The notes under the pieces were generated by a model, which was not told the DNA's origin, searched no databases, and saw only the letters and a program-made list of their open reading frames with translations. From a virus: a DNA stretch of 64,000 bases. A program made the position numbers and the translations under genes. The DNA is taken from positions 22,539-86,538 of the IMG/VR virus record IMGVR_UViG_3300012920_000025. One strand, written 5' to 3'. Shown here one piece after another: positions 33,653 to 51,190 of the stretch. Every line of letters starts with the position of its first letter. The stretch's first letter is position 1.

Positions 33653-35242
33653 ATGAAACACTATTCAGACGGTAAGGATTTACATCAACTGATGCTTGAT
33701 GGGGTCAATCAACTTGCCGACAATGTAGCATCAACATATGGACCCAAGGGTCGTAACGTAATATTAAGGAAGAAAGATGGCAAACCGATCATCACCAAAG
33801 ATGGAGTCACTGTTGCGAGATTTGTATCTCTCGAAGATCCGTTCCAGGATGCAGCAGTTGAAATTGTCAAGCAAGCATCAGAGAAAACGAACTCCGATGC
33901 GGGAGACGGCACCACTACATCAACAATCCTAGCAAGAGCAATCTTTGCAAAGTCTCTTGAACTTATTGAAAGAGGATTAAGTCCTGTGGAGGTCAAGCGT
34001 GGTTTAGATAAGGTATGTAAACTTGTCTGTGAGAAGATAGAGGAAAAGTCTAAACCAATCTCTAGCGCAGAAGATGTGGCATTTGTTGCAAAGATCTCTG
34101 CCAACAATGATCAGGTCATTGGTGATCTTATCTCCACTGCTGTAGACAAAGTGGGCAAGGGAGGTTCAGTAACTATTGAAGATGGTAGGTCAACTGAAAC
34201 AACTCTTGATTTAGTCGAGGGTTTTAGGTTTCAGTCAGGATACTTATCGAACTACTTTGTAACGGATGAAAGAAGAAATGTTTGTAGATATGAGAATGCT
34301 TTACTTTTCCTGTGCGACGCCCAAGTCGACCAGGTCCAAGTTATTTTACCAGTACTGGAAATTGCTGCAAGAGAACAGAAACCAATCGTATTAATTTGCG
34401 ATGATGTCGAGGGACAAGCACTATCTGCGCTTGTTATGAACTCTGCGCGAGGATCAATGAAGGTTGCCGCTGTAAAATCTCCCAAGTACGGTGAAGAGCG
34501 CAGAGCAGTCATGCAGGATCTTGCTATTGCTACCGGTGCCAGGTACTTTAGAACAATGATGGGCGATCAAGTTAGGGATGTAACTATTAATGATTTGGGA
34601 ACCTGTCACAACATAGAGATCTCTAAGTACGGTACGATCATTGTCGGCGGCGGAGGAGATACCGAAGAGATGTCTCAGCGGATTGAGGATCTGAAGCAAC
34701 AAGTTAAGGATGCAGAGTCTCTTGTTGATGCAGAACAGATTCAGGAGCGAGTAACCAGATTGTCTAGTGGTGTTGCTATTGTTCGTGTTGGCGCAGCAAC
34801 AGAGATAGAAATGATTGAAAAGAAGCATCGCATAGAAGATGCGCTAGAAGCGGTCAGGTCTGCACAACAAGAAGGCATCGTTCCAGGTGGAGGACTGACG
34901 CTATATAGAATCTCTCAAACGATTTTGGATGACATCAGGAATGTTGAGTTGACGGAAGATCAGAAGTTTGCTGCGGAAATCTTTTATGATGTTCTTAGGT
35001 CTCCGATCAAAGAGATGGCAGAGAATGCAGGGTTTACATTTGATGAGGTTGACGGAGTTTTGTCTAATGAATCAGACAATACCGGATTTAATTTCTTGAC
35101 AGGACAACCCGTAGATATGTATAATAGTGGTGTTGTTGACCCAGCAAAGGTTACTAAAAACGCACTGAGAAATGCAGTCTCGGCTGCGGGTACATTGCTG
35201 ACAACTAATTTTGCAATTATTGAAGAACGAGGAACTCCATAG
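33653..35242 (+). CDS. groEL: GroEL-like chaperonin
   Basis: This 529-residue protein is colinear with GroEL. It has TYGPKGRNVIL, the ATPase motif GDGTTTST near residue 86, KISANND, the GGSVTIEDG equatorial-intermediate junction, and VPGGGLTLYR near residue 415. It lacks the Gly-Gly-Met tail that projects into the ring cavity. It probably works with the GroES-like protein at 19636 to fold virion proteins. A consensus promoter sits directly upstream, so expression is likely strong. Confidence 0.95.
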   Translation: MKHYSDGKDLHQLMLDGVNQLADNVASTYGPKGRNVILRKKDGKPIITKDGVTVARFVSLEDPFQDAAVEIVKQASEKTNSDAGDGTTTSTILARAIFAKSLELIERGLSPVEVKRGLDKVCKLVCEKIEEKSKPISSAEDVAFVAKISANNDQVIGDLISTAVDKVGKGGSVTIEDGRSTETTLDLVEGFRFQSGYLSNYFVTDERRNVCRYENALLFLCDAQVDQVQVILPVLEIAAREQKPIVLICDDVEGQALSALVMNSARGSMKVAAVKSPKYGEERRAVMQDLAIATGARYFRTMMGDQVRDVTINDLGTCHNIEISKYGTIIVGGGGDTEEMSQRIEDLKQQVKDAESLVDAEQIQERVTRLSSGVAIVRVGAATEIEMIEKKHRIEDALEAVRSAQQEGIVPGGGLTLYRISQTILDDIRNVELTEDQKFAAEIFYDVLRSPIKEMAENAGFTFDEVDGVLSNESDNTGFNFLTGQPVDMYNSGVVDPAKVTKNALRNAVSAAGTLLTTNFAIIEERGTP

Positions 35243-37502: not shown

Positions 37503-37931
37503 ATGACACACGCAATTGCTACATATCGACCAGGACTACTTGGTCACAAAGTTATCAATGAGGTCTTTGATAATTTCTTCAATGACTTCCCAACACACTT
37601 GAAGGCATCTACACAGGGATACCCCGTTGCCGACATTTATCGAGACGATGATGGTTCCACTGTGCTAGAGTTTGCATTGGCAGGGTTCAAGAAGAAAGAA
37701 CTCTCTATTGACATTCAGCCGGATAAGAGAAGTATTACTATTGCTGGACAAGTTGATGAAAATAATCAAAAGAGGCAGAGGATTGCTCGTAGGAACTTTA
37801 CAAGAACGTACGTTAACTATGATGACAACCTAGACTTGTCACAAGCTAAAGCATCGTTCGAGAATGGTTTGTTATCAGTTAGAGTCCCACAGCGACCAGA
37901 AGTCCAACCACTGTCAATTAAGATTGACTAA
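37503..37931 (+). CDS. Small heat-shock protein, Hsp20/alpha-crystallin
   Basis: This 142-residue protein has the alpha-crystallin core: VADIYRDDDGSTVLEFALAG, a central KRSITIAGQVD strand, FTRTYVNYDDNLDL and ASFENGLLSVRVP. The N-terminus has the PGLLGHKVINEVFDNFF arm. Phage Hsp20 proteins are common in cyanophages and related marine myoviruses and hold unfolded proteins for GroEL. A strong own promoter and hairpin leader suggest high, separate expression. Confidence 0.93.
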   Translation: MTHAIATYRPGLLGHKVINEVFDNFFNDFPTHLKASTQGYPVADIYRDDDGSTVLEFALAGFKKKELSIDIQPDKRSITIAGQVDENNQKRQRIARRNFTRTYVNYDDNLDLSQAKASFENGLLSVRVPQRPEVQPLSIKID

Positions 37932-40663: not shown

Positions 40664-41623
40664 ATGAATCTCGGATATGCATGCATTAACATGAACCTAT
40701 CTACACTTCCCAAATCAAAGCGAGTCACGACGAATCGCTCCATGATCAAGAAGACCTTCCAGCAGAAGGGTATTGCCTACGCATCAGAGTTGGGATTGCA
40801 GAACTGCAGAGACCTTCTGACTATTCTGCAGTGGAACGAAGCAAACGGTATCAAGTTTTTCCGAATGACTTCGGATCTCCTACCTTGGTCTTCAGAGTAC
40901 AACCTCAAAGACTTGCCTGACTATGAAGACATATGCTATTGGCTTTGCGAAGCAGGGATGTTCGCAGAAGAACATGGACATCGTATCACTACACACCCTG
41001 GTCCGTTCAACGTGCTTGGTTCACCAAATGAGAACACGGTTCGTAAAACTATCAAAGACCTTGAAACACACTCAGAAGTGTTCGACCTGATGGGTCTACC
41101 TGATACCCCTTATGCTAAGATTAATATTCACATCGGTGGTACATATGGTGGCGACTTCTCAAATACAGCAGACCGTTGGTGTCGCAACTTCCTAAAGTTA
41201 TCGCCCAACTGTCAAAACCGCATCACGGTGGAGAACGACGATAAGGCATCAATGTGGTCTACTCGCCATCTGTATGATTACATTCATAAAGTAATTCACA
41301 TTCCTATTGTGTTTGACTATCATCATCATCGATTTTGCACAGGTGGACAGACTGAAGGCGAGGCACTACAACTTGCAGCATCAACTTGGCACGGCGTGAC
41401 ACCGGTCGTACACCTATCTGAGTCTCGCCGCGAGGAACAGGGCGATGTGAAGATCAAAGAACAAGCACATTCAGATTATATTTACAAACCAGTTGATAAT
41501 TATGGTGTCAACTATGATATGATGCTAGAATGCAAGAAGAAAGAACTTGCATTGATTAAGTATCGAGCAATACTAAACATGGAGATGATAATAAGTGGTT
41601 CAGAAGAAAAGGCATATTGCTAA
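40664..41623 (+). CDS. uvdE: UV damage endonuclease UvdE
   Basis: This 319-residue TIM-barrel enzyme has the N-terminal LGYACINMNLS, RMTSDLLPW, ITTHPGP, a HIGGTYGG metal loop, TVENDD and FDYHHH. These are the metal ligands of the UVDE family. It nicks DNA beside UV photoproducts, useful for a phage in sunlit water. It has its own promoter. The last 29 bp overlap the DUF2061 gene. Confidence 0.93.
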   Translation: MNLGYACINMNLSTLPKSKRVTTNRSMIKKTFQQKGIAYASELGLQNCRDLLTILQWNEANGIKFFRMTSDLLPWSSEYNLKDLPDYEDICYWLCEAGMFAEEHGHRITTHPGPFNVLGSPNENTVRKTIKDLETHSEVFDLMGLPDTPYAKINIHIGGTYGGDFSNTADRWCRNFLKLSPNCQNRITVENDDKASMWSTRHLYDYIHKVIHIPIVFDYHHHRFCTGGQTEGEALQLAASTWHGVTPVVHLSESRREEQGDVKIKEQAHSDYIYKPVDNYGVNYDMMLECKKKELALIKYRAILNMEMIISGSEEKAYC

Positions 41624-42523: not shown

Positions 42524-42770
42524 AGCAACAATTTACCTCTTCAGCGATGGAGAGTGGACAACTAGAACTACAACATTTCCATTCAAAACTGAAGCAACCC
42601 TAAAAAAGCACTTGACTTCAATCTACGGAAAGAGTAAGATGGAAGATGTGTTTTGGGACATTATTGAACCCGAACCAGAAGAGGGTCTTGAAGAAATTGA
42701 AACAGAACCAGACACAGAACTCGGTCTATATTTTAAAAAGAAAGGCATAAAAAAGAAGGTCAATAAGTGA
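42513..42770 (+). CDS. Small acidic phage protein
   Basis: This 85-residue protein has a beta-rich first half (EATIYLFSDGEWTTRTTTFPF), an acidic PEPEEGLEEIETEPD stretch and a Lys-rich end. The start may be 42513 or 42516. It overlaps the thymidine kinase start by 4 bp. Confidence 0.6.
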   Translation: MMLEATIYLFSDGEWTTRTTTFPFKTEATLKKHLTSIYGKSKMEDVFWDIIEPEPEEGLEEIETEPDTELGLYFKKKGIKKKVNK

Positions 42771-43327
42771 AACCACCTGAGTTAAAAATATTTACTGGTC
42801 CGATGTTTGGTGGCAAAACAACAAGGATGCTTGCAGTACTGGAGAGGTACAGATATCAGCACAGGAACGTTGTATTGTTTAAACCAAATGTTGACAAGAG
42901 ATATTCTGATAGCAAGGTGGTAACACATAAAGGGCAGGAGCACACCTCTATACTAGTGAGTGTTGGATCGGAGATCCTTGAGCAGGCACTGAACGCCGAT
43001 GTCGTGGCAGTAGATGAACTGTTTATGATTCCTGGTTCTGCTGATGCTTGTCTTGAGTTATACAAGATGGGAAAGACTGTGTTGGTTTCAACGCTACAAC
43101 TCTCCTCTCATCCTGACGGATATAACTCTTTTAGGGAAGTGAAGGACTTGATGCCATGGGCAACTAAGATAGAGGTGTGCCCTGCAGTTTGCTCGGAGTG
43201 TGACAGGGATGCCTATTACACAAAAAGGTTGGAGGGTAAGCAGGACAGTGATATATTGGTTGGAGGCGCTGAGTCTTATCAACCTGTGTGCTGGAAACAT
43301 TCCATTATAGGCAAAACAAAGATATGA
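42767..43327 (+). CDS. tdk: Thymidine kinase
   Basis: This 186-residue type II enzyme starts at GTG 42767. It has the P-loop GPMFGGKTTR near residue 12, the catalytic-Glu strand VVAVDELFM, and four zinc cysteines in CPAVCSEC and the later PVCWKH. It salvages thymidine to dTMP alongside ThyX. It follows the small acidic gene by overlap. Confidence 0.95.
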   Translation: MKPPELKIFTGPMFGGKTTRMLAVLERYRYQHRNVVLFKPNVDKRYSDSKVVTHKGQEHTSILVSVGSEILEQALNADVVAVDELFMIPGSADACLELYKMGKTVLVSTLQLSSHPDGYNSFREVKDLMPWATKIEVCPAVCSECDRDAYYTKRLEGKQDSDILVGGAESYQPVCWKHSIIGKTKI

Positions 43328-46855: not shown

Positions 46856-47035
46856 ATGAGTTGGTTTTATATAATGTGGACTGTATGTGCGCTGTGTTTT
46901 GTCGCATCTCTTTATCTAACTGTAAAAGCGTTACACAAAGTTGCAAACATAAATACCGTTAGAATTAATGAAAACAAGAAAAGACTTGAAGAATTTGCAA
47001 AGAGGGTTCACGGAGTAGACGAAAATGAATCTTAA
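46856..47035 (+). CDS. Small membrane protein, unknown function
   Basis: This 59-residue protein has one span (MWTVCALCFVASLYLTV) and a helix rich in Asn and Lys. It starts after GGGAG and overlaps the first methylase by 11 bp, so it may be co-translated with it. Confidence 0.6.
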   Translation: MSWFYIMWTVCALCFVASLYLTVKALHKVANINTVRINENKKRLEEFAKRVHGVDENES

Positions 47036-47918
47036 AACACCACTGAGATACCCAGGAGGAAAGTCCAGGGCAATCAAGAAACTAAGTCCAGATTTGCCAA
47101 AGAGTTTCAAAGAGTTCAGAGAACCGTTCCTCGGAGGAGGTTCGATGGCGCTGCACATAACTCAGGACAGACCTGGTACTAAGGTGTGGGTAAATGATGC
47201 GTACTACAACCTATACAACTTTTGGGTTCAGTTGAGGGATAAAGGTGCAGCACTGCATCAGGAGTTAGCAAATATTAAAACACCCATTGAATACGTGTCC
47301 AAACCTCTACGAAAGAAGAAAGTTGACAAGTCACAATGGGATAAGTCTATCGTTGATAATATTGACAGACATAGATCTCTTTTCAACAAGGCGAGAGAGG
47401 AGATCTCTACAGTGGATGACTTTACCAAAGCAGTATACTTTTTCATACTAAATAAGTGTAGTTTTTCAGGTCTTGGTGAGAGTAGTTCATTCTCAGAGCA
47501 GGCATCAGAGCAAAACTTCAGTATGACTGGTATCAATAAGTTGCCGCTATACTCTAAATTAATCAAAGATTGGAAGATTACTAATCTTGACTATAATCAG
47601 GTAATGAGTATGCAAGGTGATAGTTGCTTTGTGTTTCTTGACCCTCCCTATGACATCAAGGATGATTTGTATGGAAAGAATGGCAATATGCACTCAGGTT
47701 TCGATCACATGAGATTCTATGAGGATGTCGTTAAGTGTGACCATGACTGGATGATTACATACAATTCAAACGAAGTTTTAAGAAAGAGGTTTTCAGATTA
47801 TTATTTCAACGATTGGGACTTGACATACACGATGAGATCTAGTAAAACATATACAGAAGCACAGAAAGACCGCAAAGAATTGTTAATAACAAACTATGAG
47901 AGGGGTAGTGGTGTCTAA
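47025..47918 (+). CDS. DNA adenine methyltransferase of the Dam/D12 class, module 1
   Basis: This 297-residue protein has PGGKSR near residue 10, the AdoMet motif EPFLGGGS near residue 35 and the catalytic DPPY near residue 207. That gives alpha-class N6-adenine methylation of a short target. It overlaps the EcoRI-like nuclease gene downstream, so it likely protects the phage genome from that enzyme. Its target site cannot be read from sequence. Confidence 0.93.
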   Translation: MNLKTPLRYPGGKSRAIKKLSPDLPKSFKEFREPFLGGGSMALHITQDRPGTKVWVNDAYYNLYNFWVQLRDKGAALHQELANIKTPIEYVSKPLRKKKVDKSQWDKSIVDNIDRHRSLFNKAREEISTVDDFTKAVYFFILNKCSFSGLGESSSFSEQASEQNFSMTGINKLPLYSKLIKDWKITNLDYNQVMSMQGDSCFVFLDPPYDIKDDLYGKNGNMHSGFDHMRFYEDVVKCDHDWMITYNSNEVLRKRFSDYYFNDWDLTYTMRSSKTYTEAQKDRKELLITNYERGSGV

Positions 47919-48435
47919 TATTTCACAGAGAGACGAAGGATTTAATGGCGGTATCCAGTCGGGTACCACTGCATTTGACGAGGAAAGCAAGACGTTAGAT
48001 AGATACTTGAAGGTTGCAAGAGACAGACTTGCAGGTGAGTTTCCAAATCTGACGATGGTTAAAATGTTCGGTGAAGAACATAAAGAAAAATACCTTGGCG
48101 GTAACTTGACAGGATTCTCTCCCGATGGGGGAGCATGGTTTGATTCTAATGAAAACCTCGTCGCAGCATTTGAAGGCAAGAAGCAGAACAAGAGAGGCAA
48201 CGCCTACGAGCGATGGTTTAAAAATGCTCAAGTTGCTAACCTCTGTAATAAAGATGTGACATATGTTACGCTCTGCACAGGTACAGGTGCTCAGAAGGGC
48301 GAATGTTTAGATAAACTCAGGAAACTCGGTAAACTATTTTTTACATCTAAATACAAATTTTTTATGAAACCAGAGGGGATGACCTATCGCGAAGTGGAGG
48401 ATATTATGAGGTCTACTTTGAGAGGGTTGGCATGA
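47911..48435 (+). CDS. EcoRI-family restriction endonuclease, module 1
   Basis: The GTG at 47911 follows GAGGGG; an ATG at 47896 gives five more residues. The 174-residue protein has PDGG (Asp72) and FEGKKQ (Glu88, Lys90), the D..ExK catalytic centre. Residues 96-101 are GNAYER, matching the GNAIER motif with which EcoRI reads its target; MunI-like enzymes share it. It is shorter than EcoRI (277 residues). Overlap with methylases on both sides makes a restriction-modification role likely. The target may contain AATT, by analogy only. Confidence 0.8.
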   Translation: MSNISQRDEGFNGGIQSGTTAFDEESKTLDRYLKVARDRLAGEFPNLTMVKMFGEEHKEKYLGGNLTGFSPDGGAWFDSNENLVAAFEGKKQNKRGNAYERWFKNAQVANLCNKDVTYVTLCTGTGAQKGECLDKLRKLGKLFFTSKYKFFMKPEGMTYREVEDIMRSTLRGLA

Positions 48436-49451
48436 CTCCACTCTTCATGTGGGCAGGTGGTAAGACAAAACTCATAGACAACCACTACGGACCCTTCCTT
48501 CCAGAATGCTTTGACAAATATCACGAACCTTTCTTTGGCGGCGGCGCTATGTTCATTTGGGCATATAAGCAAAACCCTAATGCAAGTTTCTATATTAACG
48601 ACATTAACCATGATATTGTTAAGGTATACCAGACCATCAAGAACGATGTGTCAAACTTTATAAATATTGTTGATGACTATGAAGCAAAATATATCTCTCT
48701 TGATCCCCCGAAGATGAGGGATAAGTCATCCGGTAAAACAGTGTGGGTCGACCACCCAACTGGAAAGAAGGACGCAGACCTTGAGACTAAACATAAGTTG
48801 CCAAAGAACAAATATGATTGGCACAAGATATATGCAGAGAAGCAAACAAGAAGGACGTTCTTCTTTAAGACTAGGCAGACTTACCAGCAAGATTATAGGA
48901 AGTGGTCTAAGACTGAAGAGGCAGCGTGTCTTTACTTCCTGATGAAGACAGCATTCAATGGCGTCTGGCAGTTAGGTAAAGATGAGTACGGAAGATTTAA
49001 TACACCATGTGGTCTGATGCGTCACGACAATGACATCTACGATAAACAGAACGTCATGCAGTGGCATCAAGCATTACAGAACTGCAAGATTACCAGTCAT
49101 GACTTCTCAGATACAATTAGTGATATTAGTGGCGGGTCTTATGTTTTCTTAGATCCTCCCTATCGTTCGGCATCCGATGCAGAGCGAACCTTCGCTGACT
49201 ATGGAACTGAACTTGGTGACGAATTTCAACAAAAAGTTCTTGACTTCTTTCATGAATCATGGAATAATGGAGCATATTCTTTGTTATCGAACCGTGACTG
49301 GGGAGATAACTTCTTTGAAGATAGAAATAAAGGTTGCAAAATAGAATACTTTGATGTAACATATACCGTGGGTAGAAAAAAGAAGCAGGAAGACGACACC
49401 CACACAGCAACTAAGGCAACAGAGATTCTGATGATTGGAGAGCGAAAGTGA
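48432..49451 (+). CDS. DNA adenine methyltransferase of the Dam/D12 class, module 2
   Basis: This 339-residue protein has the parts of a D12 methylase: WAGGKTKLI near the start, EPFFGGGAMF, NDINHD and a VFLDPPYRS block near residue 240. It differs clearly from module 1, so it is not a recent duplicate. It overlaps the nucleases on both sides by 4 bp, so this four-gene run is one translational unit. Confidence 0.93.
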   Translation: MTPLFMWAGGKTKLIDNHYGPFLPECFDKYHEPFFGGGAMFIWAYKQNPNASFYINDINHDIVKVYQTIKNDVSNFINIVDDYEAKYISLDPPKMRDKSSGKTVWVDHPTGKKDADLETKHKLPKNKYDWHKIYAEKQTRRTFFFKTRQTYQQDYRKWSKTEEAACLYFLMKTAFNGVWQLGKDEYGRFNTPCGLMRHDNDIYDKQNVMQWHQALQNCKITSHDFSDTISDISGGSYVFLDPPYRSASDAERTFADYGTELGDEFQQKVLDFFHESWNNGAYSLLSNRDWGDNFFEDRNKGCKIEYFDVTYTVGRKKKQEDDTHTATKATEILMIGERK

Positions 49452-49975
49452 TTGATCTTAAAAAAGATGTAGACTGGAAGAAAGTGTTCGGTGTCATTAA
49501 CTCAGTGAGTACACTAACTCGTAATCAAACCAGACCACTCCGCACTGAGATTGTGGAAATGGCTATTGCAAAATACAGTGGCGGTAAGTTGAAGTATGTC
49601 GGTGATTCTGCCGATGGTATGGACTTCGAAGGTTCTGATGGTCTTCGGTATGAGTGCAAGATGCAAGGTACAATCTTTCAACCAACTACACCACACAGTG
49701 CTAAGGTTGTTTTAAAGAATCACTACTCAACCAAGAAACAGAATGTCAAGAAGACGTTTGACAAGATGATCTTTATTGATACCAAGAAGAGAAAGGTCGG
49801 CGTTGTAGACTTCGAGCAACTCTCAATAGAGAACAAGTCTGCTGATGTTAAATGTTGGGTAAAAGATCAAAGCGTTGTGAACATCGTTGCTGATGGCATA
49901 ACCGCTGATAAGGGTTATGACGGATTAAACATGGAAAAAGTTATTTTTGAAGCAATACAAAATAGTTTAAAATAA
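49448..49975 (+). CDS. Probable restriction endonuclease, module 2
   Basis: This 175-residue protein starts at GTG 49448, overlapping the second methylase stop. A PD-(D/E)xK-type core is visible: DGMDFEG (Asp59) then RYECKMQ (Glu69, Lys71), followed by a helix. It lacks the EcoRI GNAxER motif, so it is another specificity. Its place directly after a methylase is the main evidence that it restricts DNA. Confidence 0.7.
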   Translation: MIDLKKDVDWKKVFGVINSVSTLTRNQTRPLRTEIVEMAIAKYSGGKLKYVGDSADGMDFEGSDGLRYECKMQGTIFQPTTPHSAKVVLKNHYSTKKQNVKKTFDKMIFIDTKKRKVGVVDFEQLSIENKSADVKCWVKDQSVVNIVADGITADKGYDGLNMEKVIFEAIQNSLK

Positions 49976-49978
49976 GTC

Positions 49979-50007
49979 TTGACAAAACAATAAACAAATT
50001 ATATGAT
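49979..50007 (+). promoter_or_regulatory. Sigma-70 promoter
   Basis: TTGACA at 49979 and TATGAT at 50002 are 17 bp apart, just after the restriction-modification genes. It would drive the ParB-like gene. Confidence 0.85.
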
Positions 50008-50032
50008 GATTAAAAGAAAAGGAGGTGAAGCG

Positions 50033-51190
50033 ATGAACACAGCACAAGTTATACCTATCTCACGCGCACAGCGATTGCCGACGGCTGCAATTAAGGAGGT
50101 CATTGAATACGTTGAGAAAGTAGCAGTTAAAATCAGAGAAAATCAATGTCCTGTACGAACCCAGTATTATGGAAGTCCAACGCTTATACGAGAGTATTTG
50201 GTGCCGGTTGACCTACTCTCAACAGACATTAAGTCACAAAAGCGAAGAAAGGGCAAAAACTCAGCAATTGTATCTCAACTATCGAAACAGTTTGAGCGTG
50301 ATGGCCAGAGTAAGGGTATTTGTTGTAAGGTTGTACAAGATGAAGACGGTAACTGGGAGATTATTATCAGGTGGGGTAACCACCGTTGGAAAGCAGTCTT
50401 GAACTTGGTATCGAGAGGTTCGAATATTCTTGGTGTAGATCAAGGTTATGTTTGGATTTCTATATTCAACGAGTATCATGCAGATCATGAACTTAATGGT
50501 TTGCAAACAATCGAAAACAACCTACAAGAAGCATCGGAACCTGCTGATGATGAGGATAACCTAGATTCTTTAGATCAAGCGTGGAAGGATGGAGAACTTG
50601 ATACCACCGAGAAGTTCTCGAAACTGTCTCAAGAAGACAAGCAAGAGCAACTAAAAAAGTGGATTGAATCTTTCATGGGTGCAAACGTAAAGCAACCATC
50701 TAGGTTAATCAAAAAGTTCTTTAAAAGAAACTCTGCAAAAGTTAGAACTGATACGAAAGAAGCAGAAGATCATCAGGATCACTGGAATCTTTATGAAAGT
50801 CATAACTTTGGTGGAATTAAGTTTACGAATGCTGGAAAAAGGAACAACACGGTATACTACAATGGGAAGACCCATGCTCAATACCACATGAACGGTGATT
50901 TCTGGGCAGGAGCAACCATTCAGCAGATGAGTCATGCCAAACTTGGACTGCTCCCGAATCAGAACCCAAAGGCAGACGTTGTACATCTTGTCGTCTCACT
51001 GCCCTTAAATGTACTGAAAGATGGTCAAGCAAAAATACAAAGTCGAAGACAGGAATGGGAAAACGCTGTTAAGCATTGGAATCAAACACTTGGCAAGATT
51101 GTTGACTATCTTTACATTATGCCCCAGACTGGTCCAGAAGAGTTGAACTCAAAGAAGGGGAACCCTTGGATTAAAAAGATTAAATTTTAA
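50033..51190 (+). CDS. ParB-like N-terminal domain protein
   Basis: ATG 50033 follows AAAGGAGGTG. The frame also opens at 50003, inside the promoter, which is therefore rejected. The 385-residue protein has a ParB/Srx-like region near residues 50-125: REYLVPVDLL, then QLSKQFERDG, then WEIIIRWGNHRWKAVL. A charged linker and a C-terminal domain with YNGKTHAQYHMNG follow. ParB-like phage proteins include DNA-binding and nuclease factors. It has its own promoter after the restriction-modification block, so any link to restriction is open. Confidence 0.65.
   Translation: MNTAQVIPISRAQRLPTAAIKEVIEYVEKVAVKIRENQCPVRTQYYGSPTLIREYLVPVDLLSTDIKSQKRRKGKNSAIVSQLSKQFERDGQSKGICCKVVQDEDGNWEIIIRWGNHRWKAVLNLVSRGSNILGVDQGYVWISIFNEYHADHELNGLQTIENNLQEASEPADDEDNLDSLDQAWKDGELDTTEKFSKLSQEDKQEQLKKWIESFMGANVKQPSRLIKKFFKRNSAKVRTDTKEAEDHQDHWNLYESHNFGGIKFTNAGKRNNTVYYNGKTHAQYHMNGDFWAGATIQQMSHAKLGLLPNQNPKADVVHLVVSLPLNVLKDGQAKIQSRRQEWENAVKHWNQTLGKIVDYLYIMPQTGPEELNSKKGNPWIKKIKF

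Follow-up and report, generated by a model that had tools for sequence, protein, structure and literature searches.

A predicted AATT-specific restriction-modification module nested within a second type II module in a tailed phage

Four overlapping genes of a tailed phage appear to form two type II restriction-modification modules, one inside the other. We consider it probable (about 0.72) that an AATT nuclease and its methylase (R1-M2) are nested in a second module (M1-R2), and that both are expressed in lytic infection, leaving the phage protected while unmodified host or competitor DNA is cut. The analysed stretch, hereafter the window, has 64,000 nucleotides and spans positions 22539-86538 of a virus record that is 86,538 bases long. 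Its relevant features are as follows.

46856..47035, + strand: short ORF whose N-terminus is hydrophobic; overlaps the beginning of M1 (relatives: L074, L073)
47025..47918, + strand: M1, D12 N6-adenine methyltransferase of the outer module (297 aa; MethyltransfD12; R2 is the next gene in eight relatives)
47911..48435, + strand: R1, EcoRI-like nuclease of the inner module with predicted AATT specificity (phrog_2400, motifs, hhalign, AATT avoidance)
48432..49451, + strand: M2, Dam-like D12 N6-adenine methyltransferase of the inner module (339 aa; TIGR00571; downstream of R1)
49448..49975, + strand: R2, PD-(D/E)xK nuclease of the outer module (175 aa; AF2 model, Foldseek, invariant residues)
47911..49447, + strand: R1-M2 cassette, inserted between the M1 tail and the R2 start (empty sites in relatives; filled site in L013)

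Gene layout and pairing of the modules

ORF calls confirmed four overlapping genes on one strand, as a previous sequence-only reading had described, with overlaps of 8 bp at M1/R1, 4 bp (ATGA) at R1/M2 and 4 bp (GTGA) at M2/R2. All four reading frames were intact. Both nuclease genes start with GTG; R1 could alternatively begin at an in-frame ATG (47896). Because the same genes are found in an overlapping layout in other contigs, the four-gene layout is not due to chance. The small ORF that overlaps M1 is 59-60% identical to its relatives in L074 and L073 and is possibly co-transcribed. R2 is followed by a weakly ParB-like ORF at 50003-51190 (phrog_1033, E 0.008).

The record encodes a tail tube protein, a head-tail adaptor and a head maturation protease, as well as UvsX, ribonucleotide reductase and DNA polymerase. 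No integrase or repressor was found among the proteins of the record that were checked, and the phage is therefore likely to be lytic. Its relatives among Synechococcus phages point to a marine origin. GroEL (33653-35242), an Hsp20-family chaperone (37503-37931), UvdE endonuclease (40664-41623) and thymidine kinase (42767-43327) are also encoded in the window.

Relatives of R1 and R2 were collected from viral contigs, and all four genes were mapped around each locus. In eight distinct close relatives (L072, L073, L075 and L077-L081; L076 has the same R2 as L075 and was left out of the count), R2 comes immediately after M1, and R1 and M2 are both absent. The order was R2-M1 in another clade (L084-L096) and R2, a gap and M1 in L082. 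An M2-class methylase was located downstream of R1 in 41 of the 45 distinct loci with enough flanking sequence, sometimes separated from it by an extra ORF, as in S-RIM2. By eye, an ORF between R1 and M2 is ParB-like (weak DUF6551 match) in L011 (4135-5187; S-RIM2), L036, L044, L045 and L064. Nuclease and methylase are linked and co-inherited in the inner module (the 41 loci) and in the outer one (the eight relatives and the R2-M1 clade). These adjacencies in homologous loci indicate that M1+R2 and R1+M2 are the cognate pairs, and thus that the order in the window is nested, M1-[R1-M2]-R2. In S-SCSM1, the M1 relative (73 kb of the record) and R2 (221 kb) are far apart, and no adjacent methylase was mapped near the most distant R2 relatives. 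One scan of genome contigs with R2 returned a single MAG contig carrying relatives of R2 and M1.

The sequence-only reading had proposed two complete nuclease-methylase pairs of the type II kind in a phage, and this was supported, one nuclease being EcoRI-like and the other of the PD-(D/E)xK kind. It had also paired M1 with R1 and M2 with R2 as adjacent, back-to-back modules. Gene order within the window alone favours that pairing, which we regard as extremely improbable, since homologous loci join R1 to M2 and R2 to M1, and M1-R2 is present as an intact empty site.

Comparison of the junctions showed that the insert is flanked by an intact M1 tail and an intact R2 start, the eight uninterrupted M1-R2 loci being empty sites and L013 a filled site. 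One system sits inside the other through a scarless insertion of R1-M2. The same nesting was found in a second contig (L013/L074). M2 of the window and M2 of this second contig are sisters (100/100), but this does not hold for M1 and R2; the R1-M2 cassette would either have moved between phages or have been lost in relatives. The orders R1-M2-R2 in L056, L057 and L061 and M1-R1-M2 in L031 suggest that the two modules were brought together repeatedly.

The inner module and its predicted target

R1 matched one family only, phrog_2400 (5e-28), annotated as "unknown function". The motifs PDGG, ExKxQ and GNAxER, which are the catalytic and base-reading motifs of EcoRI, were kept in 44/44 aligned R1 relatives and occur in R1 in the same order as in EcoRI (GAATTC; PDB 1eri, 2oxv). 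A profile of the R1 family aligned with EcoRI by hhalign (E 4.1e-5, 36% identity) over 58 columns spanning the catalytic and recognition motifs, and the EcoRI letters in this comparison were checked against the PDB. The description of R1 as EcoRI-like was upheld by the motifs and this alignment. R1 differs from EcoRI in its length (174 aa versus 277), in having about 20 residues fewer between ExK and GNAxER, in appearing to read four bases, and in its partner, a Dam-type D12 methylase.

AF2 models of R1 and R2 were built with alignments of the window and viral-contig sequences alone. The R1 model (pLDDT 86.6) gave weak PD-(D/E)xK matches in Foldseek, the best being BbvCI (E 0.05) and Hef (E 0.07), and EcoRI was not among them; the fold evidence for R1 is therefore weaker than the motif evidence. 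Sequence searches of the PDB with R1 and R2, as single sequences and as profiles, returned nothing useful, and tblastn against plasmids gave chance-level matches only. One of these, on an Azospirillum plasmid, was rejected as a nuclease because it falls on a methylase gene. The window R1 lies on a long branch (1.52 versus 0.49 for the L074 R1), and its activity or specificity may have shifted accordingly, although 34 of 36 near-invariant columns and every catalytic residue are retained. Identity between the window and L074 is 52% for R1 and 71-82% for M1, M2 and R2.

The homology of R1 to EcoRI predicts an AATT core as the target. Tsp509I/MluCI are bacterial AATT-specific enzymes, to which R1 is likened by this predicted target alone. 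We counted four-base palindromes in 41 phage records or record parts against a maximal-order Markov expectation. The observed/expected ratio (O/E) of AATT was 0.00-0.82 (median 0.30) in 18 phages with R1 and 0.69-1.10 (median 0.94) in 23 phages without it (Mann-Whitney p=1.6e-7), and the difference persisted after related phages were merged at three thresholds (p=9.4e-6, 8.2e-5 and 4e-4). S-RIM2, whose R1 homolog is SWTG_00030, showed an O/E of 0.27, versus 0.97 in its relative syn9, with no R1 in the 50 kb checked. The related R1 contigs G019 and G020 contain 0 AATT against 195 and 311 expected (about 506 in total), and a search for a D12 methylase in both found none.

Depletion was intermediate in the nested phages, with 264 sites against 443 expected in the window (0.60) and 103 against 137 in L013/L074; recent acquisition or good protection by the methylase would explain this. 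Several R1-M2 phages were mildly depleted (0.58-0.82). Contrary to the trend, the short R1 fragments L052 and L055 (10.9 and 23.5 kb) had near-normal AATT (39 against 51 and 57 against 71), and no methylase was found in them. Surviving AATT sites occurred in all flanking contexts with no G/C flank bias, so the avoided word is the tetranucleotide. Tetranucleotide AATT is most likely the target of R1, and its avoidance indicates that R1 would act on AATT DNA in infected cells.

M1 and M2 are both D12 methylases, as first proposed (Pfam MethyltransfD12, E 7e-29 and 2.9e-28); EPFLGGG/EPFFGGG and DPPY in their translations satisfy the FxGGG and DPPY motifs of that profile. M2 also passes the TIGR00571 (dam) cut-off (E 9.6e-43) and matches DpnM (1.9e-23). 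Dam-type enzymes methylate the A of GATC, and in Dam a lysine before WxGGK reads the G. This lysine is present in Dam and DpnM, whereas M, I or V takes its place in 40/40 members of the M2 family, whose partner is an EcoRI-like nuclease. GATC was therefore dropped as the M2 site, and the substituted residue is consistent with a non-GATC site. M2 presumably makes A-m6A-T-T, which has the same central A-T as GATC.

The outer module and other avoided words

The best solved relative of M1 is 7m6b, an adenine methyltransferase. R2 had no significant family match. Its AF2 model (pLDDT 92.7) matched restriction enzymes best in Foldseek (NhoI, NaeI, Eco15I and PvuII; best E 2e-3), and E37, D59, E69 and K71 were invariant in 68/68 sequences. 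This fold, together with an active-site D and ExK kept throughout, bears out the classification of R2 as PD-(D/E)xK-like. The likeness to NhoI, NaeI and PvuII lies in the first matches of the model (E 2e-3 to 0.15) and the PD-(D/E)xK active site; there is no detectable sequence similarity, and TM-scores are only 0.25-0.45. Structure comparison of both nucleases, part of the check attached to the earlier reading, gave restriction enzymes as the best matches for R2, and for R1 weak PD-(D/E)xK matches that did not include EcoRI.

Word counts in the sampled phage records revealed no word depleted specifically in M1-R2 phages. AGCT looked good at first as the R2 site and was rejected, as controls showed RGCY-wide avoidance, also in phages without R2. 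GGCC was rejected as the M1/R2 site because it has no adenine for M1 to methylate. The RGCY words AGCT, AGCC and GGCC are strongly avoided in most phage records, whether R1 or R2 is present or not. TTAA has an O/E of 0.00 in G015 and G016 (loci L180-L185), both with R2-M1 in reverse order; another nuclease or an altered R2 target may be behind its absence. CCGG has an O/E of 0.00 in every sampled stretch of the cyanophage-type records S-PM2, syn9, P-SSM2 and S-RSM4 (L248-L251), S-RIM2, S-SCSM1, G019 and G020. In G008 (L167-L170), CCGG, CGCG, GATC and GGCC all have an O/E of 0.00 in 75 kb.

Role in infection and relation to known systems

In the proposed mechanism, both pairs would be expressed during lytic infection. 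The methylases would protect phage DNA, aided by the AATT sites having been lost from the genome of the phage, and the nucleases would cut up host DNA that is unmodified, along with the DNA of any competing phage, as proposed for chlorovirus restriction enzymes. According to the cited passages on chloroviruses, the sites of those enzymes are 2-4 bp long, and rapid degradation of host DNA, but not mutual exclusion, is ascribed to them (PMC7019647). The resemblance to the window system lies in virus-coded enzymes with short sites, adjacent nuclease and methylase genes and the proposed degradation of host DNA; the chloroviruses are eukaryotic algal viruses, and a nested module is not described in those passages. 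By analogy with them, cutting of host or competitor DNA in lytic growth is likely, and it is plausible, as the earlier reading suggested, that the phage cuts the DNA of its host or of rivals and protects its own.

The modules might instead serve superinfection exclusion, mainly destroying the DNA of co-infecting competitor phages with little effect on the host chromosome. Two specificities would suit attack on varied rivals, and phages without R1 retain normal AATT and hence would be vulnerable. However, an AATT cutter would hit unmodified host DNA too, and in chloroviruses exclusion was shown not to result from the restriction enzymes (PMC7019647); we consider exclusion as the main role rather doubtful. 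The nucleases could also be inactive or decaying in the window phage, so that only the methylases matter, as anti-restriction enzymes. The unusually long branch of the window R1 and its only partial AATT depletion would fit, but four intact, overlapping frames, the conserved columns and catalytic residues of R1 and the invariant active site of R2 make this improbable.

It is slightly more improbable still that a host-encoded AATT restriction enzyme drives the avoidance, R1 and M2 being bystanders or a counter-defence in which M2 shields the phage from that enzyme. Host-driven avoidance does exist, many words being avoided and some without a linked phage gene (RGCY, CCGG). Nevertheless, AATT alone among the palindromes tested tracks R1 this strongly, and it does so across several unrelated clusters; AATT contents differ between the relatives S-RIM2 and syn9; and AATT was predicted from the EcoRI motifs of R1 before counting. 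The preferred reading thus remains that of two nested modules acting on unmodified host and competitor DNA. More tentatively, lytic marine phages could use phage-borne AATT cutters on foreign DNA, some having lost the methylase and erased every AATT of their own, a modification-free protection.

Phage-borne type II systems are already known. In one bacterial phage, the temperate NrS-3, a complete type II system (R.Nph3I/M.Nph3I) has been proven in vitro; the authors of that work remark that phages had been considered to lack such systems almost entirely (PMC10734518). That system differs in being a single module with the site RGATCY in a temperate phage and is thought to benefit the lysogen (PMC10734518). 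Nearly all methylases of lytic marine phages had been reported as orphans, all but two in a marine survey (PMC9516812). The sequence-only reading had called complete pairs rare in phages, which does not hold for this group, as cultured Synechococcus phages and dozens of phage contigs carry the families. Searches of the open-licence literature yielded no previous account of AATT enzymes in cyanophages.

What is new here is the nesting, the AATT assignment for phrog_2400 and the presence of phrog_2400 in cultured Synechococcus phages; the enzyme chemistry is ordinary, the nesting unusual and the phage nuclease family newly assigned. The locus provides an example of a restriction-modification system nested within another. 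phrog_2400 gains a likely function and target and, being carried by cultured Synechococcus phages such as S-RIM2, can be tested on isolates. It is probable that some lytic viruses attack non-self DNA with bacterial-style restriction enzymes of their own. These results suggest that restriction enzymes encoded by viruses, for which algal viruses are the best-known source, are common among lytic phages of marine type.
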